Part shown: piece after piece, positions 12,334-32,401 of the stretch
Layout: every line of letters begins with the position of its first letter
How positions within the stretch are numbered: the first letter of the stretch is position 1
From: Pseudomonas hormoni
GTDB taxonomy: Bacteria > Pseudomonadota > Gammaproteobacteria > Pseudomonadales > Pseudomonadaceae
Assembly (NCBI RefSeq): GCF_018502625.1
Contig: NZ_CP075566.1
Coordinates: forward strand, 5,645,001 to 5,709,000
Length of the DNA stretch: 64,000 nt
Direction: 5' to 3'
Made by a program: the position numbers and the translations under genes
Notes under the pieces: model-generated
What the model saw: only the letters and a program-made list of their open reading frames with translations
What the model was told of the DNA's origin: nothing
Database searches by the model: none

Positions 12334-12451
12334 GCGGTGAGTTCCGTAAAACGATTGAAATTCGAGCCGCGCAGTATGCGACTAAACGCAGCCTGTACGA
12401 CAGACCGGCGACGCAGTTAAGCTGGCACTATCTTGTTGGAGCACTCTGTTG

Positions 12452-12865
12452 ATGCTGACCCTCGGAAATATCTTCGTGCTGATGCTGCTCGCTACCGCTG
12501 GCGCGTGGCTGTGGCACAACCATGGCTTGCGCGAGCGCGCGCTGGAGCGGGTCAAGCAGCATTGCAGCAATCTCGGGATCGAGTTGCTGGATGGCAACGT
12601 AGCGCTGAAAAAAATTGCATTCATCAAGGATGCCAATGGTCGGCGACGTCTGGCCCGTGTGTATAACTTCGAATTCACGGTGACCGGCGAAACCCGCCAT
12701 AACGGCACCATCACCCAATTCGGCGCCCACAGCGCGCAGATCGAACTGGCCCCCTACCCGATGCCCTTCGACGACACGCCTCCGGTGGTCGACGTGGTGA
12801 AACCGCGCGCAGAAGTGATTGAGCTTAGTCAGTGGCGGCAAGAACACACCAAATGGCGTCCTTAA
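12452..12865 (+). CDS. DUF3301-domain protein
   Basis: A 137-residue protein with one N-terminal membrane helix (about 4-22) and a cytoplasmic DUF3301 domain that includes GIELLDGNVALKK and the YNFEFTVTGE strand. Function is unknown. GGAG precedes the ATG; a TTG one codon earlier is an alternative. Its stop overlaps the stop of the converging COG0523 gene by 3-4 bp. Confidence 0.82.
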   Translation: MLTLGNIFVLMLLATAGAWLWHNHGLRERALERVKQHCSNLGIELLDGNVALKKIAFIKDANGRRRLARVYNFEFTVTGETRHNGTITQFGAHSAQIELAPYPMPFDDTPPVVDVVKPRAEVIELSQWRQEHTKWRP

Positions 12866-13827: not shown

Positions 13828-13854
13828 GGTCGGTGTTTTCTGAGGAGTGAAAGG

Positions 13855-14211
13855 ATGCGGTTGATTGGCTGGACGTTGCTCTTGGCCCTGGTTTGCGGCG
13901 AAGCGCTGGCCCAGGCTTGCGTGGTACATAGCACGGCTGAGCGACTGGACGTGCAAGTCTGTCAGCAGAACCGAAACATCCCGGAAAAACTCTTCGCCGA
14001 TGGCTTCTGTCAGCCGAACCTTCCTGGTCAGAAGGTCGAAGTGCAGTACGTCGACCAATGCCCCGGCGGCGCATTCGGCGTGTGCAGCAATGCTCAAGTC
14101 GCCAATATGCCTTACCGGCAGGATATTCACTATTACGGCGTGGCCACCGATGCGGCGTACCTGAAGCCGTTTTGCGAAGGCCAGAGCCAGGGCAACTGGC
14201 TCAAGCCTTGA
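13855..14211 (+). CDS. Small secreted cysteine-rich protein of the zinc cluster
   Basis: A 118-residue protein with a signal peptide (MRLIGWTLLLALVCGEALAQ) and six cysteines after the predicted cleavage site, so it is probably a disulfide-bonded periplasmic protein. A TGAGGAG ribosome binding site precedes the ATG. Function is unknown; a similar protein sits at this place in other Pseudomonas zinc clusters. It lies on the strand opposite both neighbours, ending 4 bp from the DUF1826 gene. Confidence 0.75.
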   Translation: MRLIGWTLLLALVCGEALAQACVVHSTAERLDVQVCQQNRNIPEKLFADGFCQPNLPGQKVEVQYVDQCPGGAFGVCSNAQVANMPYRQDIHYYGVATDAAYLKPFCEGQSQGNWLKP

Positions 14212-14215
14212 TCCG

Positions 14216-14866
14216 CTAACTCAGCCAATCGAGGGTCAGCATCAAACGACGCTCGCCCGGCGCGAGCTGCGGCGAGCGGTGAATCAGGCCAAAACCTTCG
14301 TTGCCGTGCCATTTCTCGCCCTTGAGTAATGCGACGGCGCCGCTGCCGATTTGCTGGATCAGCGAACTGTCCGTGGGTTCGGCTCCGGGCTGGCTCAACT
14401 GGCGACGATCCATCGCGCCATCTTTCAGCCACTGACTGCCAACACCGGCATACGTGGTAATCAAACGCACCGGCACATGATCGACATGAAAGCGCGGGCA
14501 CATGGCTTTATCCAGAACCCGCAAACGCACGCCAATACGCTTGGCACCGAGCAGGCAGGCAAAGGCGCTGACCAGCCAGGAAACGTCGGCGATAAAACCT
14601 TCATAGCTTTCGAGATCGCTGAAGCCCGAGGCCAATCCGCGGAGGTTGGGTTCGGTGTCTTCGTTGGCGATTTCCAGCGATAACGACTCGGCCAATGGCT
14701 CGTTCAAGGACAGCAGCAGTCTGCCAAAATCGGCGATGTGTACCGGGAGTTGGCGCTGCCAGATGGCGAGGTTCACGCCGTCATCGAGAATTCGGGCGAG
14801 GGTTTGCGGCGTCTCGCCCTGAACCTGAGACATGAACGGCCGAAGCTTCAAGGTCGGTGCCAACAT
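14216..14866 (-). CDS. DUF1826 protein of the Zur regulon
   Basis: A 216-residue soluble protein of the DUF1826 family, which is found next to COG0523 GTPases and is induced by zinc starvation in P. aeruginosa (PA5534). Conserved histidines are visible in PRFHVDHVPVR and near the C-terminus (KWHGNEGFGLIHRSP), a pattern that could bind metal in a cupin-like or 2OG-oxygenase-like fold; that is inference. Its ATG overlaps the stop of zigA by one base (TGATG), which indicates translational coupling. Confidence 0.85.
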   Translation of the reverse strand: MLAPTLKLRPFMSQVQGETPQTLARILDDGVNLAIWQRQLPVHIADFGRLLLSLNEPLAESLSLEIANEDTEPNLRGLASGFSDLESYEGFIADVSWLVSAFACLLGAKRIGVRLRVLDKAMCPRFHVDHVPVRLITTYAGVGSQWLKDGAMDRRQLSQPGAEPTDSSLIQQIGSGAVALLKGEKWHGNEGFGLIHRSPQLAPGERRLMLTLDWLS

Positions 14867-16074
14867 CACGCCGCTTCCTCTTCAAACCAGGGACCGAACG
14901 GATCAGGCAGCAATCGCCAGCCCTCGACGCCAGATGCCATTTCATCATCGGTCAGCAGGCAATCGTCCAGCTCTGCGGTGAGTAGAGTGAAGTCGATGTT
15001 CTGGCCGATGAACACCAGTTCCTGGCGGCAATCACCGGTGGTGGCGGTCCAGTTTTCCATGATCGCGGTAGTGCTTTCTTCGTCCTGCGGCCATTGGGCT
15101 TTCGGCACGAATCGCCACCAGCGTCCGGCAAAACCATGGCGCATCAAACCACCCGCCTGGGACCAGCTGCCCGCGTCCATCGGTTTGCTCGCCAGCCAGA
15201 AAAATCCTTTGGAGCGCAGCAGTTTGCCGTTCACCCATGGCCGCTCGATAAAGCTGAAGAAGCGCTGCGGGTGGAAGGGCCTGCGTGCTCGGTAGGCCGT
15301 GGAGGCGATGCCGTACTCCTCGGTTTCCGGCACGTGCTCGCCGCGCAGTTCCTGCAACCAGCCGGGTGCCTGCGCAGCCTTCTCGAAGTCGAAGCGACCG
15401 GTGTTGAGGATTTTCTTCAGGGGAATTTCACCCATGACCATCGGGATGATGTCGGCTTGCGAGTTCAATCGTTCGAGGATCGCGATCAGCTCCTGACGCT
15501 CGCGGCTGCTGATCAAGTCGATCTTGCTGATCAGGATCACGTCGGCGAATTCGATCTGCTCGATCAACAAGTCAGTGATCGAGCGCTCGTCCTCCTCGCC
15601 GAGGGTTTCGCCACGAGAAGCGAGGCTTTCGGCGGCCTGATAGTCGAGCAGGAAGTTCATGCCGTCGACCACAGTGACCATGGTGTCGAGCCGTGCGATG
15701 TCGGCAAGGCTTTGCCCTTCTTCGTCACGGAAAGTGAAGGTTTCCGCCACGGGCAGTGGCTCGGAGATGCCCGTGGATTCAATCAGCAAGTAATCAAAGC
15801 GGCCGTCCCTGGCGAGTTTGCTGACTTCTTCGAGCAGGTCTTCACGCAACGTGCAGCAGATGCAGCCGTTACTCATTTCCACGAGTTTTTCTTCGGCGCG
15901 GTTCAGAGTGACGTCACGCTGAACTTCGCTGCCATCGATGTTGATCTCGCTCATATCGTTGACGATCACCGCGACTCGCAGGTTTTCGCGGTTACGCAGC
16001 ACATAGTTGAGCAACGTGCTTTTGCCGGCGCCGAGAAAGCCCGACAGGACGGTCACGGGGAGACGATTGGGCAT
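14866..16074 (-). CDS. zigA: COG0523 zinc-starvation GTPase ZigA
   Basis: A 402-residue G3E GTPase with Walker [10 protein letters not shown], the [11 protein letters not shown] metal motif, ESTGISEP and SKID, plus a C-terminal CobW_C domain (about 270-390). The longer C-terminus and the DUF1826 partner match ZigA (PA5535), proposed to supply zinc to enzymes under starvation. GAGGAATTCCTG precedes the ATG at 16074, preferred over 16104. The divergent promoter region holds a perfect Zur-type palindrome 50 bp upstream. Confidence 0.9.
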
Positions 16075-16123
16075 CAGGAATTCCTCACGGGGATGCCCGG
16101 TCACAGTGTCGGGCTTAATTCAA

Positions 16124-16138
16124 TGTTATAGTATAACA
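16124..16138. promoter_or_regulatory. Zur box between zigA and a divergent secreted-protein gene
   Basis: TGTTATAGTATAACA is a perfect 15-bp palindrome that matches the Pseudomonas Zur operator core GTTATAnTATAAC. It contains -10-like TATAGT on the plus strand and TATACT on the minus strand, so one bound Zur dimer could repress both directions. Confidence 0.88.
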
Positions 16139-16217
16139 ATGCGTTCAAGCCACTCTCCTATTGCCCATCATCACAAAGGGCAGGATGCTGGAGCCCGTTC
16201 GGTTCGTGAGAAATCCC

Positions 16218-16595
16218 ATGCGCACTGCCCTCAAATTAACGCTGATGAGCGTTTCGCTGCTGCTCGCCGTAGACGCCTGGGCGCAAATCCCGAGCCTGGC
16301 AAAATGCACCCGAAGCGCCAACCTGCTGGCCTGCGTGGATGCCGACGGCAACGCCTACAGCGTCAACACCGTCGGCAACACGATCTATTTGCGGGGTTTC
16401 GAACGGGCGGGAAAGCGCTACTGGGCGCAGACCAACAGTCGCTACGGACAACTGACGTTTTTCACCGGCATCGCTTCCGACGGTGAAGCCTGGGTCGGCT
16501 ATAACCGTCGGGTTGGCTGGACCACCCTCAATCGGTTTTCCAGCTCCGGCGGTAGCAGCGCCAAGTTCACCTGCAGCAGGATCACCGGATGCTAG
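16218..16595 (+). CDS. Small secreted protein, divergent from zigA
   Basis: A 125-residue protein with a clear signal peptide (MRTALKLTLMSVSLLLAVDAWAQ) and four cysteines in the mature part, two of them in the C-terminal FTCSRITGC. It is rich in Tyr, Asn and Gly and looks beta-rich. I do not recognise a characterised family. The ATG at 16218 is chosen because the signal peptide starts there. The shared Zur box upstream suggests zinc control. Confidence 0.75.
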   Translation: MRTALKLTLMSVSLLLAVDAWAQIPSLAKCTRSANLLACVDADGNAYSVNTVGNTIYLRGFERAGKRYWAQTNSRYGQLTFFTGIASDGEAWVGYNRRVGWTTLNRFSSSGGSSAKFTCSRITGC

Positions 16596-16654
16596 ACCTG
16601 CTGATATCTGTGCAGGACGAAAGCCGTTCGTGAAAAAGGCGTAGTCGATTTTAA

Positions 16655-16669
16655 TGTAATAACATAACA
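16655..16669. promoter_or_regulatory. Zur-box-like palindrome upstream of folE2
   Basis: TGTAATAACATAACA differs from the perfect 15-bp Zur core at one base in each half. It lies 32 bp before the folE2 start, a place suited to repression of the folE2-ABC-carbonic anhydrase-dihydroorotase operon. Confidence 0.72.
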
Positions 16670-16700
16670 TGCAGATCCGACTTCCACGATGGACCTGCTC

Positions 16701-17597
16701 ATGAATGCGCTGACTCTGCCGGATATCGCCGCGCAGGCCTCACGCCAAGCCCTGCCACTTGAATGGGTGGGCATGTGCGGCATTGCTCTTCCCATTTTCT
16801 TCGATGGCCAGCGATTGAGCGCGAAGGCCGACGCTGGCGTGAGCCTCGACGATGGAGGAGCGCGGGGCATTCATATGTCGCGGCTGTACCTGGCGCTGGA
16901 AATGCTCGAGCAGGAACACCTGACGCCAGCCCTAATGCGGCGTGTCTTGCAGCGATTTCTCGATACGCATGAGGGTCTGTCCAACAGCGCTCACCTGAAC
17001 ATCCACGCTGATTTACTGCTCAAACGGCCGGCGCTCATCAGTCCATTGTCCGGCTGGAAAAACTATCCGGTTAGCATCGAAGCGCGTTTGAAAAACGCAA
17101 TGTTCCACGTGGAACTAAAAATCGAAATCCCTTATTCCTCAACCTGTCCTTGTTCAGCCGCACTGTCACGGCAGTTGATTCAACAACAATTCGTCGATGA
17201 CTTCGCCAACAAGTCACTGCAACACGCTGAAGTTTTGGCTTGGCTCGGCTCCACAAAAGGTATCGTTGCGACGCCTCATAGCCAGCGCAGCAACGCGCAT
17301 TTAAAGCTGCGTCTCGATGACTATCTGGATGACCTGCCACTGATTGCGCTGATCAACGATGCCGAAGCAGCCCTCGGCACCGCCGTGCAAACCGCCGTAA
17401 AGCGCGCCGACGAACAAGCCTTCGCCCTGGCCAATGGGCAAAACCTGATGTTCTGCGAAGACGCTGTTCGACGCTTGAATCTGGCGTTGAAACGCTCTCC
17501 CGGCATCAACGCCTTCCACCTGAAAGTCGTCCACGCAGAAAGTCTGCACGCCCACGATGCCGTCGCCGAAAGTCGATGGAACTGGGAGGCCGCATGA
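16701..17597 (+). CDS. folE2: GTP cyclohydrolase FolE2 (type IB)
   Basis: A 298-residue GCYH-IB enzyme making 7,8-dihydroneopterin triphosphate from GTP, the first step of folate synthesis. Type IB can work with metals other than zinc and replaces FolE when zinc is scarce. The metal and catalytic cysteine region IPYSSTCPCSAAL is present. The ATG at 16701 (MNALTLPDIA) matches family starts; 16689 is possible. The gene contains a ParB site at 17101 and overlaps the ABC ATPase gene by ATGA. Confidence 0.94.
   Translation: MNALTLPDIAAQASRQALPLEWVGMCGIALPIFFDGQRLSAKADAGVSLDDGGARGIHMSRLYLALEMLEQEHLTPALMRRVLQRFLDTHEGLSNSAHLNIHADLLLKRPALISPLSGWKNYPVSIEARLKNAMFHVELKIEIPYSSTCPCSAALSRQLIQQQFVDDFANKSLQHAEVLAWLGSTKGIVATPHSQRSNAHLKLRLDDYLDDLPLIALINDAEAALGTAVQTAVKRADEQAFALANGQNLMFCEDAVRRLNLALKRSPGINAFHLKVVHAESLHAHDAVAESRWNWEAA
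17101..17116. other. parS partition site (inside folE2)
   Basis: TGTTCCACGTGGAACT holds the full 14-bp palindrome GTTCCACGTGGAAC that ParB binds in Pseudomonas. It is about 39 kb from parAB, within the origin-proximal domain where parS sites cluster. Confidence 0.85.
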
Positions 17598-18262
17598 TTC
17601 GCTGCGAGGCTTTGCGCTGGGGAGCGCCCGGACAACCGCTCACGCCGCCGGTGGATTTCGAATTGCCCAAGGGCAGCCTGACCGCCGTAATCGGGGCCAA
17701 CGGTTCGGGAAAAAGTAGTCTGCTGAAAGTCATCGCCGGCCTGCAAAAACCACTGACCGGTAAAGTGATCCTTGATGTTCCACGCAAAGGTTCGCTCTCA
17801 TTCCTCCCCCAGCAACAACACCTCGATCGGCAATTCCCGATCAGTCTGCAAGAGTTGGTGGCCGCCGGTTTCTGGGGCAGCAAACAATCACCCGAAGTCC
17901 GAAGCCAACGTCTCAAAGCCACGCTGGAAAATTGGTGCCTGACCGGTCTGGAACAGCGCCCACTGATGGCCCTCTCCGGCGGTGAATTGCAGCGTGCCCT
18001 GCTCGCTCGTTTAAGCCTCGCTGAAGCCCCCTTGCTGTTACTCGACGAACCCCACGCCGCCCTCGACGAACTCGGTCAGTCACTGCTGTGGAAACACATC
18101 CACGCATGGCACGCCCAAGGCCGAACCCTGGTCGTCGTGTGTCACAACCTGGCCGCCGTTCGCCAACATATTCCTCAAACACTGTTGATCAAAAGTAGCG
18201 GCTGCGTCCTCGGCCCAAGCGCCGACCTGATTCGCCAACAACCCCAAACGCAGGTGGCCTGA
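17594..18262 (+). CDS. Metal ABC transporter ATPase (ZnuC-like)
   Basis: A 222-residue ABC ATPase with Walker A GANGSGKSS, signature LSGGELQR, Walker B LLLLDEP and switch His in VVCHN. It should power import through the following permease. GGGAGG precedes the ATG, which overlaps the folE2 stop. The start at 17594 is preferred over 17576. This is a second metal ABC set, separate in organisation from canonical znuA-zur-znuCB, which is not in this window. Confidence 0.9.
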   Translation: MIRCEALRWGAPGQPLTPPVDFELPKGSLTAVIGANGSGKSSLLKVIAGLQKPLTGKVILDVPRKGSLSFLPQQQHLDRQFPISLQELVAAGFWGSKQSPEVRSQRLKATLENWCLTGLEQRPLMALSGGELQRALLARLSLAEAPLLLLDEPHAALDELGQSLLWKHIHAWHAQGRTLVVVCHNLAAVRQHIPQTLLIKSSGCVLGPSADLIRQQPQTQVA

Positions 18263-19128
18263 TGCTCGCTGCCGCTCAACTTTGGCAACCCTTCCACGAG
18301 TTCGTGTTCATGCGCAGGGCACTGCTCGGTGGATTGGTGTTGGCATGCAGCACGGCACCGCTCGGGGTGTTTCTGATCCTGCGGCGCATGAGCCTGATTG
18401 GCGATGCAGTCGCACACGGCATCCTGCCCGGCGCGGCGCTTGGCTTCTGGTTCGCCGGACTGAGTCTGCCGGCGCTGACCCTCGGCGGCCTCGGCGCCGG
18501 CCTGAGCATGGCCGGGCTCGCCGCGTGGATCACCCGCCGCACCGGGCTGCGAGAAGACGCGAGCCTCGCTGCGATCTACCCGATTTCCCTCGCCAGTGGT
18601 GTGCTGATCCTCGGCATTGCCGGCAAACGTCTGGACCTGCTGCACCTGCTCTTTGGTTCGGCGCTGGCGGTCGACGGTCCCACGTTAACCGGCATGGTGT
18701 GGGTCTCTGGTTTGAGTCTTGTCGCCATGGCACTCATCTACAAGCCGCTGCTACTGGACACCCTCGACCCACTCTTTTTGCAAACCGTCAGCCGGCTCGG
18801 TCCGTTGGCCCACGGCGTGTTTCTGACGCTGGTGGTGCTGAATCTGGTGATCGGTTTTCAGGCCATCGGGGCGCTGATGGTCGTCGGCCTGATGATGTTG
18901 CCCGCCGCCGCATCACGCTTCTGGAGCCGTCGCTTGCCTGTGTTGATTGGGATCGCCGCCCTGCTCGGCTGCCTCTCGGTGTGGCTCGGATTATTGCTGT
19001 CGTTCTACTACTCACTGCCCAGCGGCCCGGCCATCGTACTGGTGGCTGGCGGTCTGTATCTGCTGTCCGTGGTGCTCGGACCGGTGCACGGTTTGCTGCG
19101 CCGCCCGCCTTTGCTCACATCCCAATGA
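18262..19128 (+). CDS. Metal ABC transporter permease (ZnuB-like, ABC-3 family)
   Basis: A 288-residue inner-membrane permease with about eight helices. It has the ABC-3 motif RRMSLIGDAVAHGILPGAALG near residues 35-55 and the typical LMVVGLMMLPAAASRFW segment, which contacts the ATPase. The ATG overlaps the preceding TGA (TGATG). Context and family point to zinc import. Confidence 0.92.
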   Translation: MLAAAQLWQPFHEFVFMRRALLGGLVLACSTAPLGVFLILRRMSLIGDAVAHGILPGAALGFWFAGLSLPALTLGGLGAGLSMAGLAAWITRRTGLREDASLAAIYPISLASGVLILGIAGKRLDLLHLLFGSALAVDGPTLTGMVWVSGLSLVAMALIYKPLLLDTLDPLFLQTVSRLGPLAHGVFLTLVVLNLVIGFQAIGALMVVGLMMLPAAASRFWSRRLPVLIGIAALLGCLSVWLGLLLSFYYSLPSGPAIVLVAGGLYLLSVVLGPVHGLLRRPPLLTSQ

Positions 19129-19139
19129 GGTGTTGCCCG

Positions 19140-20015
19140 ATGCGCGCTTTACTCGTGCTGTTCAGTTTGATGCTGTCGATGTCGCTGTCCGCTGCGGAAA
19201 AACTGCAGGTGGTCACCAGCTTCAGCATCCTTGCCGACCTGACTCATCAAGTCGGCGGCGAGCATATCCAGATCACCAACATGGTCGGCCCGGACGCCGA
19301 TGCCCACACGTACGAGCCGACACCGGACGATGCCAAGGCGCTGCTCAAAGCCAGACTGATCATCAAAAACGGCCTGGGTTTCGAGCAATGGCTGGACCGC
19401 CTGGTGACCAGCACCGAGACCAAAGCCTCGGTCATCAACGCGAGCCGTGGTGTCATTCCGCGCTCGCTGGATGAAGACGGCGAGACCGTTCCCGATCCTC
19501 ACGCCTGGCACAATCTGGCGAACACCGAGCTGTACATCAGCAACATCACCAAGGCCCTGATCGCCGCCGACCCGGCGAACCAAACCGACTACGAACGCAA
19601 CAGCCAGGCCTACCTGAAACAGATCTACGCGCTGCTCGCCGAAGCAAAAGCCAAGCTCGGTTCACTGCCACCGGGCAACCGCAAGATCGTAACGTCCCAT
19701 GATGCCTTCGGTTATCTCGGTCAGGCCTATGGCATCGACTTCATGGCGCCACAAGGTCTGTCCACCGAACGCGAGCCTTCGGCCGCGGAAGTCGCTGCGC
19801 TGATCACCCAGATTCGTCAGGCCAAGGTCAAAGCGGTGTTCATGGAAAACATCAAGGACGCCCGTCTGCTCAAGCAGATCGCCGATGAAAGCGGCGCGCA
19901 CATTGGTGGCACGCTGTACTCCGATGCCCTCGCCGCCAGCGGTCCGGCCAGCACTTTTGCCGGCCTGTTCGAATACAACCTCAACACGCTATACGAGGCG
20001 TTGAGCAAGCCATGA
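19140..20015 (+). CDS. Metal ABC transporter substrate-binding protein (ZnuA/TroA-like)
   Basis: A 291-residue cluster A-I periplasmic binding protein with signal peptide (MRALLVLFSLMLSMSLSAA). By eye the metal ligands are His in DAHTYEP (residue 56), His in PDPHAWHN, His in TSHDAFGY and Asp in LYSDAL. The His at the third position is the zinc-type pattern, where manganese binders have Glu. The His-rich loop typical of ZnuA is absent. The stop overlaps the carbonic anhydrase ATG by 4 bp. Confidence 0.9.
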   Translation: MRALLVLFSLMLSMSLSAAEKLQVVTSFSILADLTHQVGGEHIQITNMVGPDADAHTYEPTPDDAKALLKARLIIKNGLGFEQWLDRLVTSTETKASVINASRGVIPRSLDEDGETVPDPHAWHNLANTELYISNITKALIAADPANQTDYERNSQAYLKQIYALLAEAKAKLGSLPPGNRKIVTSHDAFGYLGQAYGIDFMAPQGLSTEREPSAAEVAALITQIRQAKVKAVFMENIKDARLLKQIADESGAHIGGTLYSDALAASGPASTFAGLFEYNLNTLYEALSKP

Positions 20016-20560
20016 TCCGCAAGAACCCTTCAGGCGATTTGCCGCTGATTGCCGAGTCTGCGTACGTCGATAAAACCGCGATCATCTGCGGCAAAGTGGT
20101 GATCGGCGAGAACGTTTTCGTCGGCCCCTACGCCGTGATCCGCGCCGATGAAGTGGATGCTTCGGGCGCCATGGAGCCGATCACCATCGGCGCCAATTCG
20201 AACATCCAGGATGGCGTGGTGATTCACTCCAAGTCCGGCGCAGCGGTGACCATCGGCGAGTTCAGTTCGATCGCCCACCGCTCCATCGTTCATGGCCCGT
20301 GCACGGTCGGCGACCGGGTGTTTATCGGCTTCAACAGTGTGCTGTTCAACTGCGCGGTCGGTGATGGCTGCGTGGTGCGGCACAACTCGGTGGTCGACGG
20401 CCGCGACTTGCCCACGGATTTCTACGTGCCCTCCACCACCCGCATCGGGCCCAACACCGACCTGTCGCAGTTCCCGCCGGTCAGCGTCAGCGCCTCGGAA
20501 TTTTCCGAGGATGTGGCGCGCACCAATGTTGATCTGGTGCGTGGCTACAAAGCCCTGTAA
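20012..20560 (+). CDS. Gamma-class carbonic anhydrase-like protein
   Basis: A 182-residue left-handed beta-helix protein with repeated hexapeptides such as VVIGEN and VTIGEF. The three metal histidines of gamma-carbonic anhydrases are seen in VVIHSKSG, IAHRS and VHGPC. Such enzymes can use iron or cobalt, which would explain their place in a zinc-starvation cluster beside beta-class enzymes that need zinc. PAO1 PA5540 is the likely orthologue. Enzymatic activity is not certain, because this fold also contains acyltransferases. Confidence 0.87.
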   Translation: MIRKNPSGDLPLIAESAYVDKTAIICGKVVIGENVFVGPYAVIRADEVDASGAMEPITIGANSNIQDGVVIHSKSGAAVTIGEFSSIAHRSIVHGPCTVGDRVFIGFNSVLFNCAVGDGCVVRHNSVVDGRDLPTDFYVPSTTRIGPNTDLSQFPPVSVSASEFSEDVARTNVDLVRGYKAL

Positions 20561-20574
20561 AACGAGTTCTGACT

Positions 20575-21912
20575 ATGAGCAGCGTGCTGATTCGCAATGC
20601 CCGGCTGGTGAATGAAGGTCGTGAATTTGACGGTGATCTTCTGGTCAGCCATGGCCGCATCGTCAAGATCGCCCGCAGCATTGAAGGCGAAAATGCGACC
20701 GTGGAAATCGATGCTGACGGCCAGTGGCTGTTGCCAGGAATGATCGATGATCAGGTGCACTTCCGCGATCCCGGCTCGCCCGACAAGGGCAGTTTCTACA
20801 CCGAATCCCGAGCAGCGGTGGCCGGTGGCATCACCAGTTTCATGGACATGCCCAACACCCATCCGGCGACACTGACCCTTGCCACACTCGCCGACAAGAA
20901 GCGTCGAGCGGCGATCAATTCGGTGGCCAACTACGGCTTCCATTTCGGCGTGAGCAACGACAATCTCGACACCGTCGCCGCACTCAATCCTTGCGAAGTG
21001 GCCGGCGTAAAAGTGTTCATGGGTGCATCCACGGGCAACATGCTGGTGGACGATCCGAGGGTTCTCGAGCGGCTGTTCGCCGAGGTGCCGACGATTCTGT
21101 TGGCCCACTGCGAACACACGCCCAGCATCGACGCCAACGCTACGAATCTGCGAGCGCTGTTGGGCGAACACATTTGCGCCGCGGCGCATCCTGTAATCCG
21201 CAATGCCGAGGCCTGCTTTCGCTCGTCCTCAATGGCGGTGGAACTGGCCAAGCGTCACTGCACACGACTTCACGTTTTGCACCTGACCACCGCACGCGAA
21301 CTGGCATTGTTCGAAGACAAACCGCTGTCGCAGAAACACATCAGCGCCGAAGTCTGCCTGCACCACTTGCTCTTCGATGATCGTGATTACGCGGACCTCG
21401 GCAACCAGATCAAATGCAACCCGGCAATCAAGACTCAGGCTGACCGCGACGCCTTGCGTAACGCCTTGCTGAGCCATCGACTGGACGTCATCGGCAGCGA
21501 TCATGCGCCGCACACCTGGGCCGAAAAGCAACGCGCCTACAGCCAGGCACCGTCCGGTCTGCCGCTGGTCCAGCACGCCCTCCCCGCGCTGCTGGAGTTG
21601 GTGGCAGACGGGCTGTTGCCAATCACTGTGCTTGTGGCCAAGACCAGTCACCGTGTCGCTGATCTGTTTGCTATTCCCGACCGTGGCTATTTGCGCGAAG
21701 GTTACTGGGCAGACCTGGTGCTGATCAAACCCGAGCCTGACGGCGTTGCCGTCTCTCAGCAGCCGATTCTGTCTCAATGCGGCTGGACGCCCTTTGCCCG
21801 ACGACGCTTTCGCCACAGCGTCAACACCACGCTGGTGTCCGGACAAGTCGCATGGCGAGACAAATGTCTTAATGACAACTGTCAGGGTTTACCACTACGG
21901 TTTATGCGCTAG
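20575..21912 (+). CDS. Dihydroorotase paralogue of the Zur regulon (PyrC-type)
   Basis: A 445-residue amidohydrolase. Visible metal-site elements: DDQVHFRDPG near residue 60, the lysine in GVKVFMGAS, His in LLAHCE and HVLHLTT, and Asp in GSDHAPHTW. The usual HxH motif here is QxH, so one zinc ligand is Gln, as in a class that reads DDQVHFREPG. It catalyses ring closure of carbamoyl aspartate in pyrimidine synthesis and presumably backs up the main enzyme when zinc is low (compare PA5541, pyrQ). It ends with the normal barrel-capping C-terminus. Confidence 0.9.
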   Translation: MSSVLIRNARLVNEGREFDGDLLVSHGRIVKIARSIEGENATVEIDADGQWLLPGMIDDQVHFRDPGSPDKGSFYTESRAAVAGGITSFMDMPNTHPATLTLATLADKKRRAAINSVANYGFHFGVSNDNLDTVAALNPCEVAGVKVFMGASTGNMLVDDPRVLERLFAEVPTILLAHCEHTPSIDANATNLRALLGEHICAAAHPVIRNAEACFRSSSMAVELAKRHCTRLHVLHLTTARELALFEDKPLSQKHISAEVCLHHLLFDDRDYADLGNQIKCNPAIKTQADRDALRNALLSHRLDVIGSDHAPHTWAEKQRAYSQAPSGLPLVQHALPALLELVADGLLPITVLVAKTSHRVADLFAIPDRGYLREGYWADLVLIKPEPDGVAVSQQPILSQCGWTPFARRRFRHSVNTTLVSGQVAWRDKCLNDNCQGLPLRFMR

Positions 21913-21929
21913 CACTCGAGAGCACCAAC

Positions 21930-22826
21930 ATGATTCACATCACCCTGAGCGATGGTTCATTGCGTGAATACGACCAACCGTTGTCGGTGTACGAACTCGC
22001 CGCGAGTATCGGTCCCGGGCTGGCCAAAGCGGCTGTCGCGGGAAGGGTTGACGGCGTTTTGGTGGATTGTGAATTCATGCTCGAAGCCGATGCCCGGGTC
22101 AACATCGTCACGCCGCAAGAGCCCGACGGGCTGGAGATTCTTCGCCGGTCCTGCGCGTTGGTGTTGGCGATGGCCGTGAAACAGCTTTATCCAAAAGCGC
22201 ATTTGCAGACAGGCTCGGCGTTGGGTGATGGCTTCTTCCTTGAATTCGAGTTTGAGCGTCATTTAAACCTGGTCGACCTTGCCACCATTGAAGCGCGCAT
22301 GAAGACACTGGCGGCTACCAATCATTCGATCCGCCGCCGCAAGACGCCTACGCCAACAGAGCAGTTATCCTCCTACCTTCTGGGGGGGTTCGAGTGTGTC
22401 TCGTCGGGTCCGCATGTTCCCGCCACCCGAGTATTGCAGGCCTTCGCGCTCGAACACATCAGCGGCACATCACCACAACGGATCTATGGCACCTGCTGGT
22501 CCTGCCAGGAGGAACTGGACAACTGGCGGGCACCGCCGCACGTGATGATCGTCAGCATGGATGATCGTCAGGCAGAGTACGCACAGTCGGTGACTGAAGC
22601 GTTGCGCCGAAGCGGTGTACGCGCTCGCGCCGATCTGCGTAACGAGAAAATCCGCCACAAGATTCGCGAGCACAGTCAGCAAGTGCCGTATCTGGTGGTG
22701 ATCGGGGAGAAAGAAAAAGAAGGCGGATTTGTCAGTGTGCGCAGTCGTACCGGGGAGGATTTTGGCAGGATGGCGGTTGATGCGGTTTGCAATTGGCTGA
22801 GGTCAATAGGGATTGCGGGGGTTTGA
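21930..22826 (+). CDS. Threonyl-tRNA synthetase relic without catalytic core (TGS, editing-like and anticodon-binding domains)
   Basis: 298 residues in an intact frame. Residues 1-62 match the ThrRS TGS domain, 63 to about 195 a degraded N2 editing domain, and about 203-298 the anticodon-binding domain (IVSMDDRQAEYAQSV, ADLRNEKIRHKIREH). The roughly 290-residue class II catalytic core, which holds the zinc site, is missing: the sequence passes from IYGTCWSCQEELDNW straight to the domain normally after the core. In the editing site HSCAH has become RSCAL and MCRGPH has become VSSGPH. It cannot aminoacylate. It may be a decaying Zur-regulated ThrRS2 or a repurposed tRNA- or ribosome-binding protein. 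Confidence 0.85.
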   Translation: MIHITLSDGSLREYDQPLSVYELAASIGPGLAKAAVAGRVDGVLVDCEFMLEADARVNIVTPQEPDGLEILRRSCALVLAMAVKQLYPKAHLQTGSALGDGFFLEFEFERHLNLVDLATIEARMKTLAATNHSIRRRKTPTPTEQLSSYLLGGFECVSSGPHVPATRVLQAFALEHISGTSPQRIYGTCWSCQEELDNWRAPPHVMIVSMDDRQAEYAQSVTEALRRSGVRARADLRNEKIRHKIREHSQQVPYLVVIGEKEKEGGFVSVRSRTGEDFGRMAVDAVCNWLRSIGIAGV

Positions 22827-26179: not shown

Positions 26180-26369
26180 GGAATATCCCCCTTGTTTCAG
26201 ACGTCTGATGTGAGGTTAGACCATCCTTGAAAAATAGCAGGCTATCGATTTAATAGCCCTTTTCTATGACCCGCAGCGTTTAAACCAACCCGTCACAATT
26301 CACAGAAGTGATTGCCCTTACCCTAGATGACTACGAATCGGACGCACAGTTCTGAAAAGTTGAACCCCC

Positions 26370-28280
26370 TCAAATATCGTCCTTCAGTTTGAGCAATGGC
26401 TCCTGAAAGCGCAGCAGCCGCCCGGCATTACCCAGTACCAGTAAAGTACTCAGGTTATGCAGCAACGCCGCAATCATCGCCCCGGCCGCGCCAAGCCAGC
26501 CGAATGCGGCGAAGGCCACAATTGCCAACGTCCAGCCCAGACCGATGATCACGTTGACCTGCAACGTGTTCCGGCACTGGCGACTCAAACGCACGCAGGT
26601 GCCGAGCCGACGCAGATCACTGCCGATCAGCACGATGTCGGCGGAAGCCAAGGCAATGTCAGCCCCGCCCGCCCCCATGGCAACGCCGACCACGCCCGCC
26701 TTGAGCGCCAGCGAATCATTGATGCCGTCACCGACGACCATCGGCCGGAAGCCGCTGTCGATCTCCTTGAGCACGCGTTTGAGTTTGTCCTCGGGCAAAG
26801 CCTGGGCCTCGACATCGACGATCCCGACGTCCCCAGCCAAGGTATTTGCGACACTCTGGCGATCACCGGTGAGCAATAGCTGCCGGCCCAGCCCGAGTTC
26901 ACGCAACTCGTTCAAGGCAAACCGCGCTTCGGGTTTGACGCTGTCCGCCAGCAACAGCCAAGCGAGAAATTCACCATCAAGCGCGAGCCCGGCAATCGGG
27001 CCATCGTGTTCGGGAACGGCTGACGTGGGAATGCCCAGTTGTGCAAACAATTCTGGCCGACCGAGTGCCGCTTCGCCCTGCTCCGTCATCGCCACCACGC
27101 CCAGACCCTGCCGTTCGTGAATGTTCGAGAGCAGCATAAAATGTTCCTGAGTGACCAACCCGGCGAGTGCGCGACTGACCGGGTGACTGCTGGCGGAACC
27201 GAGGCTGGCGGCGAGTTTCAATACGTGACCGCGATCTTCCAGCGGACTGTCGATGGATTGCAGGCGCAAGGTGCCGAAGGTCAGCGTCCCGGTCTTGTCG
27301 ACCACCAGCGAGGTCAGGTCTGCCAGCTCTTCGAGAAACGCCGAACTGCGAATCAGAATCCCGTGGCGAGCAGCAACCGCAACCCCGGCAATCGCCGTGG
27401 CCGGTGCCGACAACACCAGCGCACACGGACAGGCTGCCACCAACACCGCGAGCATCGCCTGCGCATCGTTGGTGATGAACCAGGTGACGGCGGCCAGCAG
27501 CAACACCAACACCATGTAGCTGCCAGCGTAGCGTTCCAGCAATCGGGTAATCGGCGGTTTTGAACGCTCGGCGCTTTGCATCAGCGCAATGACTTTGCCG
27601 AGGGTCGACTCGCTGCCCGTACGCGTCACTTCGATACGCAGCAGGCCGTCGAGGTTGATCGCCCCGCCGAACACGGACATCCCGACACCCGCCTCCACCG
27701 GCACCGACTCGCCGGTGATCGAAGCCGTGTCGAGACTCGCCTGACCGGAGAGCACGCGGCCATCGGCCGGCACTCGGTCGCCAGCGCGAACTTCCACCCG
27801 GTCACCGGCCTTGAGCGTACCGTTGTCGACTTCGACGATGGAGCCGTCTGCCTGAATCTTGCGCGCATGGCTGCGCGTCAGTTTGCCCAGCGCGTGAATC
27901 GCTTCCTGGGAACCGATCACGCTGCGCTCTTCCAGCACGTGGCCGAAGATCATGATGATCGGCAGCAACGCAGCGGTCAGCAGATCGCCGGTCGCCCAGG
28001 CACCGAGCATGGCCAGGGCGATCAATTGATCGGTGATCCCGTGCAAGCTCGGATAACGCAAGCTGTACCAGGCCGAACGCATCACCGGCACAGCCACCAG
28101 CAATGAGGCAAAACCCAACAGCAATTGACTGACACCGGTTTGCTCCGGCGACCACCAGCGCCAGATCAAACCCAGCGCCAACAAACCCAATGCAAGCATG
28201 GCCAGGGTCAGCTGGCGGGCGGCGCTGCGTTGTTCGGCCGAGGACAACAGGCTCGGCGCGGCGGCGTTTTGCGCAGTCAT
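26370..28280 (-). CDS. hmtA: P1B-type heavy-metal ATPase, HmtA-like
   Basis: A 636-residue metal-translocating P-type ATPase without an N-terminal HMA domain. Motifs: SITGESVP, ACPCALVLSAPA in the transport helix, DKTGTLT phosphorylation site, the SSHPVSRAL HP motif, MVVGDGINDS and the C-terminal pair of helices with HNLSTLLVLGNAGRLL. P. aeruginosa HmtA (PA2435) is an unusual importer of zinc and copper and lies in a zinc-starvation-induced operon with HflK/HflC-like proteins, the same arrangement as here. Its start overlaps the preceding SPFH gene by 4 bp. Import rather than export is inferred from context. Confidence 0.85.
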   Translation of the reverse strand: MTAQNAAAPSLLSSAEQRSAARQLTLAMLALGLLALGLIWRWWSPEQTGVSQLLLGFASLLVAVPVMRSAWYSLRYPSLHGITDQLIALAMLGAWATGDLLTAALLPIIMIFGHVLEERSVIGSQEAIHALGKLTRSHARKIQADGSIVEVDNGTLKAGDRVEVRAGDRVPADGRVLSGQASLDTASITGESVPVEAGVGMSVFGGAINLDGLLRIEVTRTGSESTLGKVIALMQSAERSKPPITRLLERYAGSYMVLVLLLAAVTWFITNDAQAMLAVLVAACPCALVLSAPATAIAGVAVAARHGILIRSSAFLEELADLTSLVVDKTGTLTFGTLRLQSIDSPLEDRGHVLKLAASLGSASSHPVSRALAGLVTQEHFMLLSNIHERQGLGVVAMTEQGEAALGRPELFAQLGIPTSAVPEHDGPIAGLALDGEFLAWLLLADSVKPEARFALNELRELGLGRQLLLTGDRQSVANTLAGDVGIVDVEAQALPEDKLKRVLKEIDSGFRPMVVGDGINDSLALKAGVVGVAMGAGGADIALASADIVLIGSDLRRLGTCVRLSRQCRNTLQVNVIIGLGWTLAIVAFAAFGWLGAAGAMIAALLHNLSTLLVLGNAGRLLRFQEPLLKLKDDI

Positions 28281-29335
28281 TGTGCAGCTCCCTGAATGAT
28301 CAGGCGGGAATCGTCTTTCGGATTGACCGTGGTCACCGAGCCGGCCTGACCGAGAATTTTCGGCATGCGCTCGCGGTAGAGGCGCAGCAGCATTTGCGGG
28401 TCGGTGCCCTGTTGTTGCGCCTTGGCCAGACTCAACACGGTGGCCGTGTCGGCGGACGCTTTAGCCAGTCGTTCACTCGCTTGAGCGTGGGCGACCTGCA
28501 ACGTACGGTCGGCTTGTTCGTTGGCGGTTTGCGTGAGCTTCTCGGCTTCGGTGCGTGCGTTTGCCACCGCCTTATCCGCTTGCTGACTCGCCGTCAGAAC
28601 CGCGTTGAAGGCGTTGACCGCCGGCCCCGGCAGACTCGATTGCACATCGACTCGCGCCACTTCGATCCCCAGGCCCTGCCCGGTCGCCGCAAGATCAGCG
28701 AGTCGCTGATTGATGCCTTGCACCAGATCTCCACGCAGGCGCTCACGTCTTTCGGCGGCCTGGCTACCCGCGCCAATCAGTTCCGGTCGCGCCACCAGGA
28801 TGGTGTCCAGATCCCGGGCGGCCGTCAGCGCCACGGCACTGCGAGTCACAAGGCGATCCAGTGCCGGCAGGACATGTTCGCCTTGAAGCACGAACGCATA
28901 GGGTTCGGTGACTTTGTAAAAGACTCGCACATCCAGTTGCACCACACCGGCGTCACCGGTCAGCAAATAACCGGACCCCGCGAGCGCATCACTGAGCGGC
29001 GTGGCGAATGTGGCGACTCGGTCGGCCTGTAACGCGGCATCACTGCGCAGCAGATTTTCCACCCGCCGCTCGATCACCCGATCGGCCGCCGGCAACAAAA
29101 TGACCTGCTCGAACGGTCGCGGCCATGCCAAAAGCAGACCGGCATTCTGGATGCGATCCAGCGCCCCAAAGTGCAACACCACCGCGCGATTCTGCGGGTC
29201 GATTTGCCGAACATTGGAAAACGCCCAGGCCAACGCGGCCAGCACCGTCACCGCGTACAGTGCGAGAAAAGCCAATCGCCCGGCCTGAATCCAGGGGCTG
29301 CTCAACTCATTTGTTCCACGTGGAACCAAACTCAT
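28277..29335 (-). CDS. SPFH/Band 7 protein, HflC-like
   Basis: 352 residues: one N-terminal membrane helix (about 18-40), an SPFH domain (IDPQNRAVVLHFGALDRIQNAGLLLAWPRPFEQV...) and a long Ala/Gln-rich coiled coil (about 245-310). SPFH proteins form large cage-like membrane assemblies; classical HflKC regulates FtsH. FtsH is not encoded here, and the coupling by 4-bp overlaps to two other SPFH genes and the P-type ATPase suggests a separate metal-related complex. The first codons contain a parS site, which dictates residues VPRGT. Confidence 0.85.
   Translation of the reverse strand: MSLVPRGTNELSSPWIQAGRLAFLALYAVTVLAALAWAFSNVRQIDPQNRAVVLHFGALDRIQNAGLLLAWPRPFEQVILLPAADRVIERRVENLLRSDAALQADRVATFATPLSDALAGSGYLLTGDAGVVQLDVRVFYKVTEPYAFVLQGEHVLPALDRLVTRSAVALTAARDLDTILVARPELIGAGSQAAERRERLRGDLVQGINQRLADLAATGQGLGIEVARVDVQSSLPGPAVNAFNAVLTASQQADKAVANARTEAEKLTQTANEQADRTLQVAHAQASERLAKASADTATVLSLAKAQQQGTDPQMLLRLYRERMPKILGQAGSVTTVNPKDDSRLIIQGAAQ
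29312..29327. other. parS partition site (start of the HflC-like gene)
   Basis: TGTTCCACGTGGAACC is a full match to the Pseudomonas parS sequence bound by ParB. It lies in codons 3-8 of the minus-strand gene, about 26 kb from parAB. Confidence 0.9.
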
Positions 29336-30393
29336 GGCTGCGACCCGGACTTGGTATCGAGGGTCGGCGGACCGTCAACCAGTACTCGAAATGGCGCAGC
29401 GTCGGTGCGCAGAATCAGTTTAGTGCCAGGCGTAACGATGGTGCCCAAGGTGTCGAGGGAGCGCAGCAAGTTATACAGCTGCGGTGATCCGGCGTAGGCG
29501 CGTCCGTAAATCTGCGCGGCTTCGACGCGGGACTGGGCTTCAATGTCGGCAGATTTAACAGTGGCATCGGCCTGAACGATTCGCGCATCACGTTCGGCGG
29601 CAGAACGGATTTGCGCCGCTTCGCGTTTACCGATGGCCGTGCGTTCAGTGGCGATTGTTTCACGCTCGGCACGCATGCGATCGACCGTGGCGGACAGGGT
29701 TACCGACGGCAAGGTCAAACGCTCGATGCCGACTTGCAGCACGCGAACGCCATACGTGGTGAGCAACTGCTGATCGATTTGCTGGCGCAGTTGCGCTTCG
29801 AAATCGGCAATGTGCACCTGGTTGGCATCGGTGTTCACTAGATTGGCCAGATCGAAACTGCTGGCCGTGGTCTCCAGCGCCGAGCCGACAAAGGTGCGAA
29901 TCTGCCGCGCCGCTTCGTCGGGCTGATTCTGCACCGCGCGCATGAAGCGCTGCACATTGTCCGGATCACCTTGAACCTGCCACGCCACGTAAGCCTGAAC
30001 GATGATACGCAAACCGTCGCGCGTGCCCACATCCTGCAAACCGCTGGACGTGGTGCGCAGACGCAAGTCGACAGGAATCGCCGCTTCAAACGGTGCGGGC
30101 CAACGCCAGCCCAGGCCCGGCTCCAGCAACACACGCGACGGATTGCCGAAGCGCGTGATAACCGTGGCTTCGCCGGAACGCACTTGCACCAGGCTCGCCG
30201 CCGCGATGGCAAACGCCACCAACAACGCTGCCCAACCCATACGCCGCCAAGGGAAGGGACCGGCTACTTGTGGATCGCCGTGGTGATGATGGTGATGCCC
30301 GTGGTGATGCCCGCCATGGTCGTGATCGTGCCCGGCGTGGTCGTGATCGTGCCCGGCGTGGTCAGCATGATCGTGAGTGTGCGACTGGCTCAT
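29332..30393 (-). CDS. SPFH/HflK-like protein with histidine-rich N-terminal tail
   Basis: 353 residues. Residues 5-38 contain 19 histidines interspersed with Asp and Gly, then one membrane helix (about 50-70), an SPFH domain (TVITRFGNPSRVLLEPGLGWRWPAPFE) and a C-terminal coiled coil (about 235-300). The tail precedes the membrane helix, so it is probably cytoplasmic, and it should bind several zinc or copper ions. Gene overlaps of 4 bp on both sides tie it to the hmtA operon. Role as a metal store, sensor or docking site for the ATPase is inference. Confidence 0.86.
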   Translation of the reverse strand: MSQSHTHDHADHAGHDHDHAGHDHDHGGHHHGHHHHHHGDPQVAGPFPWRRMGWAALLVAFAIAAASLVQVRSGEATVITRFGNPSRVLLEPGLGWRWPAPFEAAIPVDLRLRTTSSGLQDVGTRDGLRIIVQAYVAWQVQGDPDNVQRFMRAVQNQPDEAARQIRTFVGSALETTASSFDLANLVNTDANQVHIADFEAQLRQQIDQQLLTTYGVRVLQVGIERLTLPSVTLSATVDRMRAERETIATERTAIGKREAAQIRSAAERDARIVQADATVKSADIEAQSRVEAAQIYGRAYAGSPQLYNLLRSLDTLGTIVTPGTKLILRTDAAPFRVLVDGPPTLDTKSGSQP

Positions 30394-32348
30394 TTGGCAG
30401 CTCCTGGCTGAGCGGTTTGACGCGCCGGCGCGGGGTCAGCCGGCAGCGTGAACGTACGGAGGTCGATGGTCGGCGCGTTGTTGCTGCCGCCCAAACGATG
30501 ATCGAGAACCAGCAACCTTGTGTTAGCCAGTCCTTGGGAAAGTTGGCTGAAATACTGCTCCAGCACGAAAGCCTGGCCGGCGCTGGCATAGGCTTTTTGC
30601 TCGGCGCTGAATTTCAGATCCGCTGCTTGCGCCGCTGCATTGATTTCACGCGCGTTGGCCGTCGCCTGGTCGCGAGCGATGCTGGCCTGCATTTGCGCTT
30701 GATTGGTCGCCTCTGCCGCCGCGCCGCGTTCGCGTGAGATCAATGCCTGCGCACCAATCTGTGCCGCTTGCACGCCGTGATAAGCGTTGGCTGCGCCGGC
30801 CGGAGGATGAATCGCCTCGACCACGGTCGCGAGAATTTCCACGCCGCTGCCGAGTGTTTGCAGGTCCGCCTGCACCGCGCGGCCTATCTCATCGGCGAGC
30901 CCTACCCTGTCTTCGCCGAGCAAACCGTCGAGGGTTCGCGAGGCGAAATCGTGAACCAGAATCCGGCTGGCGGTGCTGCGGATCAGCGTCGGTACATCGG
31001 CATTGTTGTAGGTCGCGGCCATCGCCGCTTGATCCGTCAGGCCGATGCGGTAAACGAACCTCACGTCCATGTTGACGATCTGGAAGCTCTGCCTGTCGGC
31101 ACGGCTGCTGGCGATGACCTGGGATTTGTCATTCACATGGCTGGCGTCCCACAAGCGATTGGCAACTGCCGGCGCTGGACCTTCAGCGGGCGCCGCCGCA
31201 ATGGGCGCCGCTGCTTCGCCGACACTCGTGGCCAACTCATGGACCACGCCGTTCTCGACACGCAACACTCGACCCAGCGGCCACGGCAAACCTGCGTGTA
31301 AACCGGGACCGAACACCTCAACCGGTTTGCCGAAGCGCTCGTAGATGCCCCGCCCCTGCAGAGGTATTTCGTGAATACCGGTCAGTGACCAGCCAACAAT
31401 AGCGACCACCGCCAGCACCGGCACAAACGCGCGACGCATGTAGGTGAACGCCCAGATTTGCCGCAGATCGATGCCGAAGCGGTTATGCAGTTCATGCTGC
31501 AACGCCAACAGGGGCTGGGGTGGCCAGCGCAGCATGTCGGCGACGAAGCTTCGGGCGAGCAATGCAGGTTCCAGTTGTTCGCGCCGGGGACTGAACAATG
31601 ACAGCACTGCACGCAGCAGCAGTTCGACCGCGACGAGACCCGGCAGCAGCCCGATCAGCACAGCCAGTCGCACCGGCCAGACCGACACCTCGCTGCCGAA
31701 CAGCAGACACAACGCGCTCAACACAAGGCTGATGATTGCCACGCGAGTCAGCTGCGCCAACTGCCCAGCTTCAGGCCACTGGGCCACGTTTTCCTGGGCA
31801 AGCTGCCGCTCCACCACCAGCAAACCGAAAGCCAGCAGCAACGACAATGCAGCACCGACATTGGCCGAAAAACCTGGCGCGGCAGGTGGCAGCGCCAGGT
31901 TCCAGACCTGGTTGATGCTGAACAGCGCCAACAACGCCCAGCCACCGAGCCACAGCGTCGGTGCGCCGATCTGCGCCAGCATCCGCGTCGATCGTTGGCC
32001 GATCCGCTCCAGCAGTTGTTCATACCAGCCAACCGCAGCGTCAGCGACTTCGATCTCCACTGGCGGCGCTGGGGGATTCATCGCCCGTGCGCGCCATTGC
32101 GTCACCCACCACGCCGATTGCAGCCCGGCGATCAGCACCAGCAGACCGGCGCTCTGATTGACCAGCAACGCCGGCCAAAACGATTGCGACGCAAACAGCC
32201 CGGCAAAAAACGCCAGCACCAGCCCTGTCGCCGCGAGCGCGCCGAGGCCGATTGCCAACTGTCGCAATCGTCGCCCTTGAAAGACTGCCTGCTGAAAACG
32301 CGGCAGCCCGGCTACCGCGGCTCCCTCAACTTCGAGATCGACTTGCAT
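30390..32348 (-). CDS. Large polytopic SPFH/HflK-like protein
   Basis: 652 residues, roughly twice the size of a normal SPFH protein. The first 310 residues hold about six to eight membrane helices; a further helix (about 308-325) leads into the SPFH domain (IPLQGRGIYERFGKPVEVFGPGLHAGLPWPLGRV) and an Ala/Gln-rich coiled coil (about 545-600). First gene of a four-gene operon with hmtA last. The N-terminal membrane module is unlike HflK of E. coli; I do not recognise it. A Zur-like box lies 35 bp upstream. Confidence 0.83.
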   Translation of the reverse strand: MQVDLEVEGAAVAGLPRFQQAVFQGRRLRQLAIGLGALAATGLVLAFFAGLFASQSFWPALLVNQSAGLLVLIAGLQSAWWVTQWRARAMNPPAPPVEIEVADAAVGWYEQLLERIGQRSTRMLAQIGAPTLWLGGWALLALFSINQVWNLALPPAAPGFSANVGAALSLLLAFGLLVVERQLAQENVAQWPEAGQLAQLTRVAIISLVLSALCLLFGSEVSVWPVRLAVLIGLLPGLVAVELLLRAVLSLFSPRREQLEPALLARSFVADMLRWPPQPLLALQHELHNRFGIDLRQIWAFTYMRRAFVPVLAVVAIVGWSLTGIHEIPLQGRGIYERFGKPVEVFGPGLHAGLPWPLGRVLRVENGVVHELATSVGEAAAPIAAAPAEGPAPAVANRLWDASHVNDKSQVIASSRADRQSFQIVNMDVRFVYRIGLTDQAAMAATYNNADVPTLIRSTASRILVHDFASRTLDGLLGEDRVGLADEIGRAVQADLQTLGSGVEILATVVEAIHPPAGAANAYHGVQAAQIGAQALISRERGAAAEATNQAQMQASIARDQATANAREINAAAQAADLKFSAEQKAYASAGQAFVLEQYFSQLSQGLANTRLLVLDHRLGGSNNAPTIDLRTFTLPADPAPARQTAQPGAAK

Positions 32349-32382
32349 ACCACCCCAGTGTTGTTCTTTGCTCAGGTCGCAA

Positions 32383-32401
32383 TTCGTTACGATATAACGA
32401 A
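32383..32401. promoter_or_regulatory. Zur-box-like operator before the SPFH-hmtA operon
   Basis: TTCGTTACGATATAACGAA is a 19-bp inverted repeat with 7 of 9 arm positions paired. On the minus strand the core GTTATATCGTAAC matches the Zur core GTTATAnTATAAC except for two bases. It lies 35 bp before the first SPFH start, a position expected for repression. Confidence 0.68.

Follow-up and report, generated by a model that had tools for sequence, protein, structure and literature searches.

What might three SPFH-domain membrane proteins and a metal-transporting P-type ATPase accomplish together? The question is raised by a four-gene operon within a 64,000-nucleotide stretch of the Pseudomonas hormoni chromosome (contig NZ_CP075566.1, positions 5,645,001 to 5,709,000; hereafter the window). 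Four open reading frames (ORFs) on the minus strand, designated S1, S2, S3 and AT (the ATPase), run from 32348 to 26370 with successive 4-bp overlaps (Table 1), and these coordinates bear out the initial annotation of this DNA, which had taken them as one unit. The reading favored here, to which we attach a probability of roughly 55%, is that the operon encodes a Zur-controlled SPFH-ATPase complex for zinc uptake, of which we infer both the complex itself and the direction of transport.

Linkage of the SPFH genes and the ATPase gene

Among 149 Pseudomonas genomes, 88 contained both S1 and the ATPase, 61 contained neither and none contained only one, the same 88 being recovered with each protein. 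Here, S1 was counted as long matches of at least 52% identity, weak partial matches in this genus search being left out, and the ATPase was counted at E values up to 1e-150. The two genes always lay on one contig in these 88 genomes, 2017-2220 bp apart, which leaves approximately the room occupied by S2 and S3. In a single genome (G034, locus L045), S1 is split over two overlapping ORFs. A survey of genomes for linkage had been suggested in the initial annotation, and its outcome agrees with the dedicated partnership of SPFH genes and ATPase proposed there.

The order S1-S2-S3-ATPase was preserved at 79 of 80 named loci (the best 80 of 456 stretches), the remaining one being a 3.3-kb contig. 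The 4-bp overlap between S3 and the ATPase gene was present at 89 of 96 loci, with an ATG start in 87 of these 89, the ATPase start codons having been picked to overlap S3 wherever possible.

The four-gene unit was also found outside Pseudomonas, in Rhizobium, in Burkholderiales and on plasmids. In a phylum-wide sample of 398 genomes, the same 11 contained S1 and the ATPase; a twelfth S1 match (G671), partial at 26% identity and with neither ATPase nor S3 beside it, was dropped as an ordinary SPFH pair. The sole match in a class-wide sample of 369 genomes was the genome of the window, implying that the module is rare outside Pseudomonas and Rhizobium. All nine plasmid records with an ATPase match (E up to 1e-150) were among the ten with S1, and the tenth also has an adjoining ATPase; these copies come from Rhizobium, Klebsiella aerogenes, Paraburkholderia sprentiae and Burkholderia ubonensis. 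The Paraburkholderia module adjoins a Fur-family gene, zigA and a zinc ABC transporter. Across 87 loci, the pairwise distances between the four proteins were correlated at 0.92-0.985; genes that move as one unit should show this, and shared ancestry alone would have the same effect.

Several copies differ in their setting. The K. aerogenes module (L071) lies on a plasmid typed as conjugative, and Rhizobium rhizogenes 17-2069-2c has two copies on different contigs (L086 and L092). At locus L062, a 150-residue ORF with a signal-like N terminus and no Pfam match (12142-12594) is found between S3 and the ATPase gene, where PA2436 of Pseudomonas aeruginosa would sit. The flanks of locus L059 (TamA/TamB-like and CNNM/CorC genes) gave no functional hint.

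The Zur-type box and the P. aeruginosa counterpart

A Zur-type box 35 bp before the operon had been noted in the initial annotation. The 19-bp near-palindrome, TTCGTTACGATATAACGAA, is present and conserved, and it ends 34 bases before the S1 ATG. The strict core pattern GTTATANNRTAAC occurred at four distinct sites in the closed 6.48-Mb chromosome and the reversed pattern at none; as this pattern was drawn after the operon's own site had been seen, conservation is the better test. In the upstream regions of Pseudomonas-type S1 genes, the strict core was found in 74 of 88 and a relaxed core in 83 of 88, with reversed controls at 0 of 88 for both, so that these copies display the conserved promoter-region box expected of a Zur regulon. 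The core was kept throughout a smaller upstream set, at 25-110 bases from the S1 start, and it was present in two of three upstream regions of copies L059, L060 and L128 (reversed control, 0). A looser whole-genome pattern returned the same four sites (five rows) but 14 reversed-control matches, and was discarded as uninformative. Of the two FUR-family matches in the genome, the lower-scoring one (44.8 bits) is possibly Zur.

Besides the site before this operon, the strict core precedes zigA (window 16125), a TonB-dependent receptor gene and an ORF with an HGSNAT_cat domain. The receptor site (L080, 4673-4685; chromosome position 6397172) lies ∼70 bp before the gene, with a PepSY_TM gene on its other side. 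The last site (L079, 4328-4340; chromosome position 2147327) immediately precedes an ORF whose PF07786 domain is heparan-alpha-glucosaminide N-acetyltransferase-like; this ORF is possibly an unrecognized zinc-responsive gene. A different palindrome, GATACGTAATAACGTATC, or variants of it, was observed before S1 in the Rhizobium copies L058, L083, L085, L086, L090 and L096 (L058 and L090 look like one contig); it is perhaps another regulator's site or a different Zur box.

The locus itself has been described before. Synteny identifies it as the PA2439-PA2434/hmtA cluster of P. aeruginosa, and the gene order thereby supports the resemblance to HmtA seen in the initial annotation. The published excerpts describe genes of the HflK, HflC and HflC families followed by a P-type ATPase gene, with induction by zinc depletion and a weak Zur site. 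The comparison was made by gene order; the four genes abut with 4-bp overlaps here, and PA2436 and PA2434 have no counterpart. A passage of PMC4542158 gives 5.6-14.4-fold increases for PA2434, hmtA and PA2437-2439 in a znuA mutant together with the weak Zur site, and one in PMC8531726 reports that Zur with zinc shifts the PA2439 promoter in a gel. Proteins of the cluster were raised in zinc depletion according to part of PMC11761036, significantly so, per its authors, for PA2438 and PA2439, and N-acetylcysteine is described as an inducer of PA2437-2439 in an excerpt of PMC9431628. Zur binding and zinc response have thus been published before for the counterpart in P. aeruginosa and are not new here.

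The same three SPFH genes, again as one predicted operon, have been described separately as PaFlo5-7 (PA14_33070/33080/33110) in sections of PMC13086221 (2026), a passage of PMC9431628 mapping these loci to PA2439/2438/2437. Of ten other Pseudomonas species, two have the operon according to that paper, compared with 88 of 149 genomes in the present survey. Its text yielded no match for ATPase, HmtA or chelation, and zinc is mentioned once, in connection with FtsH. No text treating the SPFH trio and the pump as one system was found among the entries listed in searches of an open-access library. What is new here is the S1-ATPase linkage, the conservation of the box, the residue replacements, the conservation of the tails and a possibly CDF-like predicted fold in S1.

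The ATPase and the SPFH proteins

AT scored above the Pfam cut-offs for E1-E2_ATPase and Hydrolase and reached 516 bits against TIGR01525 (cut-off 346). In a residue survey of 97 ATPases (that of the window and 96 others; 95 distinct), the P1B hallmarks C284-P285-C286, D328 (DKTGT) and H366-P367 were present in every sequence, and T102, W583, T584, H608 and N609 were equally invariant. The closest solved structures by sequence were sCoaT and ZntA, which share CPC or SPC, DKTGT and HP with AT. Alignment by reading places T102 at the M2 glutamate, a residue that ZntA possesses, T584 at the lysine that ZntA has in M5, N609 at the acidic M6 residue (aspartate in ZntA, glutamate in sCoaT) and H608 at the sCoaT histidine. 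AT thus differs from both pumps in lacking the M2 Glu, M5 Lys and M6 Asp/Glu, in having HNxST instead of Asp or HEGST, and in the N terminus of its clade, which is short or His-rich. A CadA-like pump of the same genome (L162, labeled so in this analysis) has E, K and D in place of T102, T584 and N609.

Assignment to the established subclasses was considered and rejected in each case. The ZntA type (P1B-2) would carry E, K and D where all 97 sequences have T102, T584 and N609, and the CoaT type (P1B-4) has SPC and HEGxT instead of CPC and HNxST or HNxGT. Pumps of the CopA type (P1B-1) carry YN in transmembrane segment 7 and MxxSS in segment 8, as do the CopA-like pumps of the same genome, and AT has WT and HNLST. 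Part of PMC8880997 ascribes the release of metal in sCoaT to E120 and E658, and the role of built-in counter-ion to ZntA K693 and sCoaT H657. The replacements at T102, T584 and N609, with CPC retained, imply that the clade keeps the CPC motif and loses the acidic path of the exporters.

That HmtA is an importer reportedly rests on Lewinson 2009. The ATPase might instead be an exporter that supplies the periplasm with zinc or copper, for instance to load a metalloprotein or to guard against mis-metallation when zinc uptake is derepressed, with an SPFH cage receiving the metal. The closest solved P1B relatives are named exporting or translocating pumps, one review holds in a passage that all P1B pumps export, another states that import by HmtA still needs confirmation, and HmtA is listed among efflux systems in one passage of PMC3781045. 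Moreover, an excerpt of PMC8531726 shows hmtA mRNA as low and flat, with no fall on added zinc. Against export stand the Zur-type control and the induction by zinc depletion, the Paraburkholderia copy beside zinc-uptake genes, and the replacement of the M2, M5 and M6 residues to which release and counter-ion are assigned in exporters. On balance, we regard export as unlikely.

The three SPFH proteins scored 68.3 (S1), 112 (S2) and 63.9 bits (S3) against PF01145 (Band_7/SPFH; cut-off 23.6), and none reached the HflK or HflC equivalog cut-offs of NCBIfam. S2 is HflC-like (TIGR01932, 91.7 bits; cut-off 134.4), and its best solved relative is HflC, matched by its profile at 5.3e-26. S3, called HflC-like in the initial annotation, proved HflK-like instead (TIGR01933, 91.9 bits; cut-off 159.4), and S1 scored 54.6 bits against the same HflK cut-off. 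By hydropathy, S2 and S3 have one predicted transmembrane segment each, so that the first 38, His-rich, residues of S2 should be cytoplasmic, and S1 has seven, with a charge pattern that points to a cytoplasmic N terminus and a periplasmic SPFH domain. An N-terminal membrane anchor followed by a predicted periplasmic SPFH domain in S2 and S3 is the arrangement of HflK/HflC-FtsH, from which the operon differs in its sub-cut-off scores, its third, polytopic subunit and the P1B ATPase as the partner gene.

These relationships could mean that in zinc-starved cells the trio acts on FtsH, a zinc protease, as a modulator in the manner of HflK/HflC, with the ATPase merely a co-regulated neighbor. PA2437-2439 are indeed read as FtsH modulators within the zur regulon in a passage of PMC9431628, and the same link is mentioned in part of PMC11761036. 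The scores below the HflK/HflC cut-offs argue otherwise, as does the strict association of S1 with the ATPase, which extends to plasmids and other classes (linkage to ftsH was not searched). In addition, the chromosome has seven SPFH matches, three in this operon and four elsewhere, two of the four being ∼0.5 kb apart as expected for hflK-hflC. Modulation of FtsH therefore appears improbable as the role of the trio.

The His-rich tail ascribed to one SPFH protein in the initial annotation is real, with the correction that it is N-terminal and belongs to the HflC-like S2. At least six His residues were found within the first 50 residues of 114 of 115 S2 homologues. The exception is the Klebsiella protein (L071), whose ATPase has a tail. 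His-rich tails take the place of a folded metal-binding domain in the AT clade, with at least four His before the first motif in 43 of 96 ATPases, and every one of the 96 operons in which both proteins are complete had at least four His on the S2 or the ATPase tail.

The membrane domain of S1 has a predicted fold that may resemble the CDF/ZnT zinc transporters (YiiP), without their sequence or their ligands. Foldseek placed YiiP at E 0.044 with a full-length S1 model, which is weak in its SPFH half (mean pLDDT, 65); a domain-only model gave no E below 0.35, which is not significant. In hhalign comparisons of the S1 membrane domain with CDF proteins of relatives, the probability was 0.3-0.4% (reversed control, 0.2%); of the 23 rows in this CDF set, two were ORFs in the wrong frame, and their removal gave 0.4 and 0.2%. 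The metal site of CDF proteins consists of Asp and His in TM2 and TM5. No conserved Asp or His was found in TM2 and TM5 of the S1 domain, PF01545 did not match any of four S1 membrane domains scanned, and S1 has an SPFH domain where CDF proteins have a cytosolic one. No sequence homology to CDF proteins was seen.

The operon is flanked by a divergent dihydrolipoyl dehydrogenase gene upstream and cfaB downstream, as identified by family profiles. A weak terminator-like hairpin between the ATPase gene and cfaB was the only one in a consensus scan, reading on both strands (two rows) against a mean of 0.2 in shuffled sequences, and a promoter scan of the minus strand before S1 found no sigma-70-like promoter. 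Elsewhere in the window, a zinc-starvation island (12862-22826) comprises zigA, which a perfect Zur-type box (16125-16137) precedes, a second CobW GTPase gene, folE2, AztA/AztC-like zinc ABC genes that score below the cut-offs of those families, and genes for a dihydroorotase and a gamma-carbonic-anhydrase-like protein. It is of the kind reported, in literature excerpts, as zinc-responsive at PA5532-PA5541. At its end (21930-22826) lies a threonyl-tRNA-synthetase-like ORF of 298 residues, whose best family stretch covers only residues 198-291; it is perhaps a short paralogue that lacks the catalytic core.

Table 1. Positions of the operon features in the window
Feature	Position	Strand	Remarks
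S1, polytopic SPFH protein	30390..32348	-	652 aa; counterpart of PA2439 by position
S1 SPFH domain, residues 331-543	30720..31358	-	Pfam PF01145
S1 six-helix membrane domain, residues 18-256, possibly CDF/ZnT-like predicted fold	31581..32297	-	without conserved metal ligands
S2, HflC-like SPFH protein with His-rich N-terminal tail	29332..30393	-	353 aa
S2 His-rich N-terminal tail, residues 1-38, predicted cytoplasmic	30280..30393	-	from sequence
S3, HflK-like SPFH protein	28277..29335	-	352 aa
AT, P1B-type ATPase	26370..28280	-	636 aa; HmtA kind by gene order
AT Thr102	27975..27977	-	aligned with M2 glutamate of sCoaT and ZntA; positions counted by eye
AT CPC motif, residues 284-286	27423..27431	-	97/97 sequences
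AT HNLST motif, residues 608-612	26445..26459	-	aligned with sCoaT HEGST and ZntA Asp714 region
Terminator-like hairpin 3' of ATPase gene	26239..26259	-	consensus scan, weak
Zur-type box, 19-bp near-palindrome TTCGTTACGATATAACGAA	32383..32401	.	13-bp core, 32386-32398

A candidate zinc-acquisition assembly

Because the coupled, Zur-boxed trio and its pump were not seen apart in the samples, one zinc-acquisition assembly is the most economical reading. The Zur-repressed, translationally coupled operon would yield a single inner-membrane assembly for acquiring zinc, and perhaps copper as well, under zinc scarcity. S1, S2 and S3 would form a mixed SPFH ring or cage with periplasmic walls, as with HflK/HflC, and the cage, whose formation we infer, would enclose the HmtA-type ATPase in place of FtsH. 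Lacking the acidic release path and the lysine counter-ion, the ATPase may import metal or be a pump altered in some other way, with the cage limiting or feeding metal on the periplasmic side. The His-rich tails of S2, the ATPase or both would bind metal in the cytoplasm.

Several observations weigh against this zinc-uptake complex. In addition to the flat hmtA mRNA and the review that holds all P1B pumps to be exporters, a passage of the review PMC10393844 names hmtA as the exception to Zur binding, in conflict with the gel-shift passage. Deletion of all three SPFH genes in PA14 had slight effects, namely ∼20% less biofilm and attenuation in Galleria, in the relevant section of PMC13086221. 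The relaxed core is missing from five of the 88 Pseudomonas-type upstream regions, and no Zur-type core was found in the upstream regions of the 14 Rhizobium and 3 beta/Klebsiella copies. The loci behind the order, overlap, tail, box, residue and distance results include contigs fetched twice, hence 95 distinct ATPases among 97, and one S2 (L060) and one S3 (L156) contain an internal stop. Finally, the residue replacements, as read from alignment, fit altered transport and are no proof of import or of direction.

That the trio is a general membrane microdomain or chaperone that stabilizes the pump with no direct part in metal handling, as the general scaffold role ascribed to SPFH proteins in literature excerpts and the slight deletion phenotypes might suggest, is very unlikely given a dedicated trio with each pump, the S2 tail and the extra membrane domain of S1, which suggest more.

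Taken further, the zinc-uptake complex may represent a primary metal importer of a new type, a tentative proposal that is possible rather than probable. A P1B ATPase with a rebuilt ion path would stand in a periplasmic cage of three dedicated SPFH subunits, the dead CDF-like domain of one serving as a membrane scaffold and the interchangeable His-rich tails as cytoplasmic metal receivers; this four-gene module would move between classes under the control of Zur, at least in Pseudomonas.

Whether any P1B ATPase imports metal is disputed, and the module gives this dispute a handle in the accompanying SPFH trio and in three residue positions, T102, T584 and N609, which set the clade apart from zinc exporters with no exception in the sequences surveyed. 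It also joins two lines of work, one on zinc uptake by HmtA, where the trio figures in the excerpts only as HflK/HflC-family genes, and one on PaFlo5-7, and it offers zinc starvation as a specific condition for SPFH proteins whose reported phenotypes are only slight. Should the cage be real, the service of SPFH assemblies would extend from a protease to a transporter.

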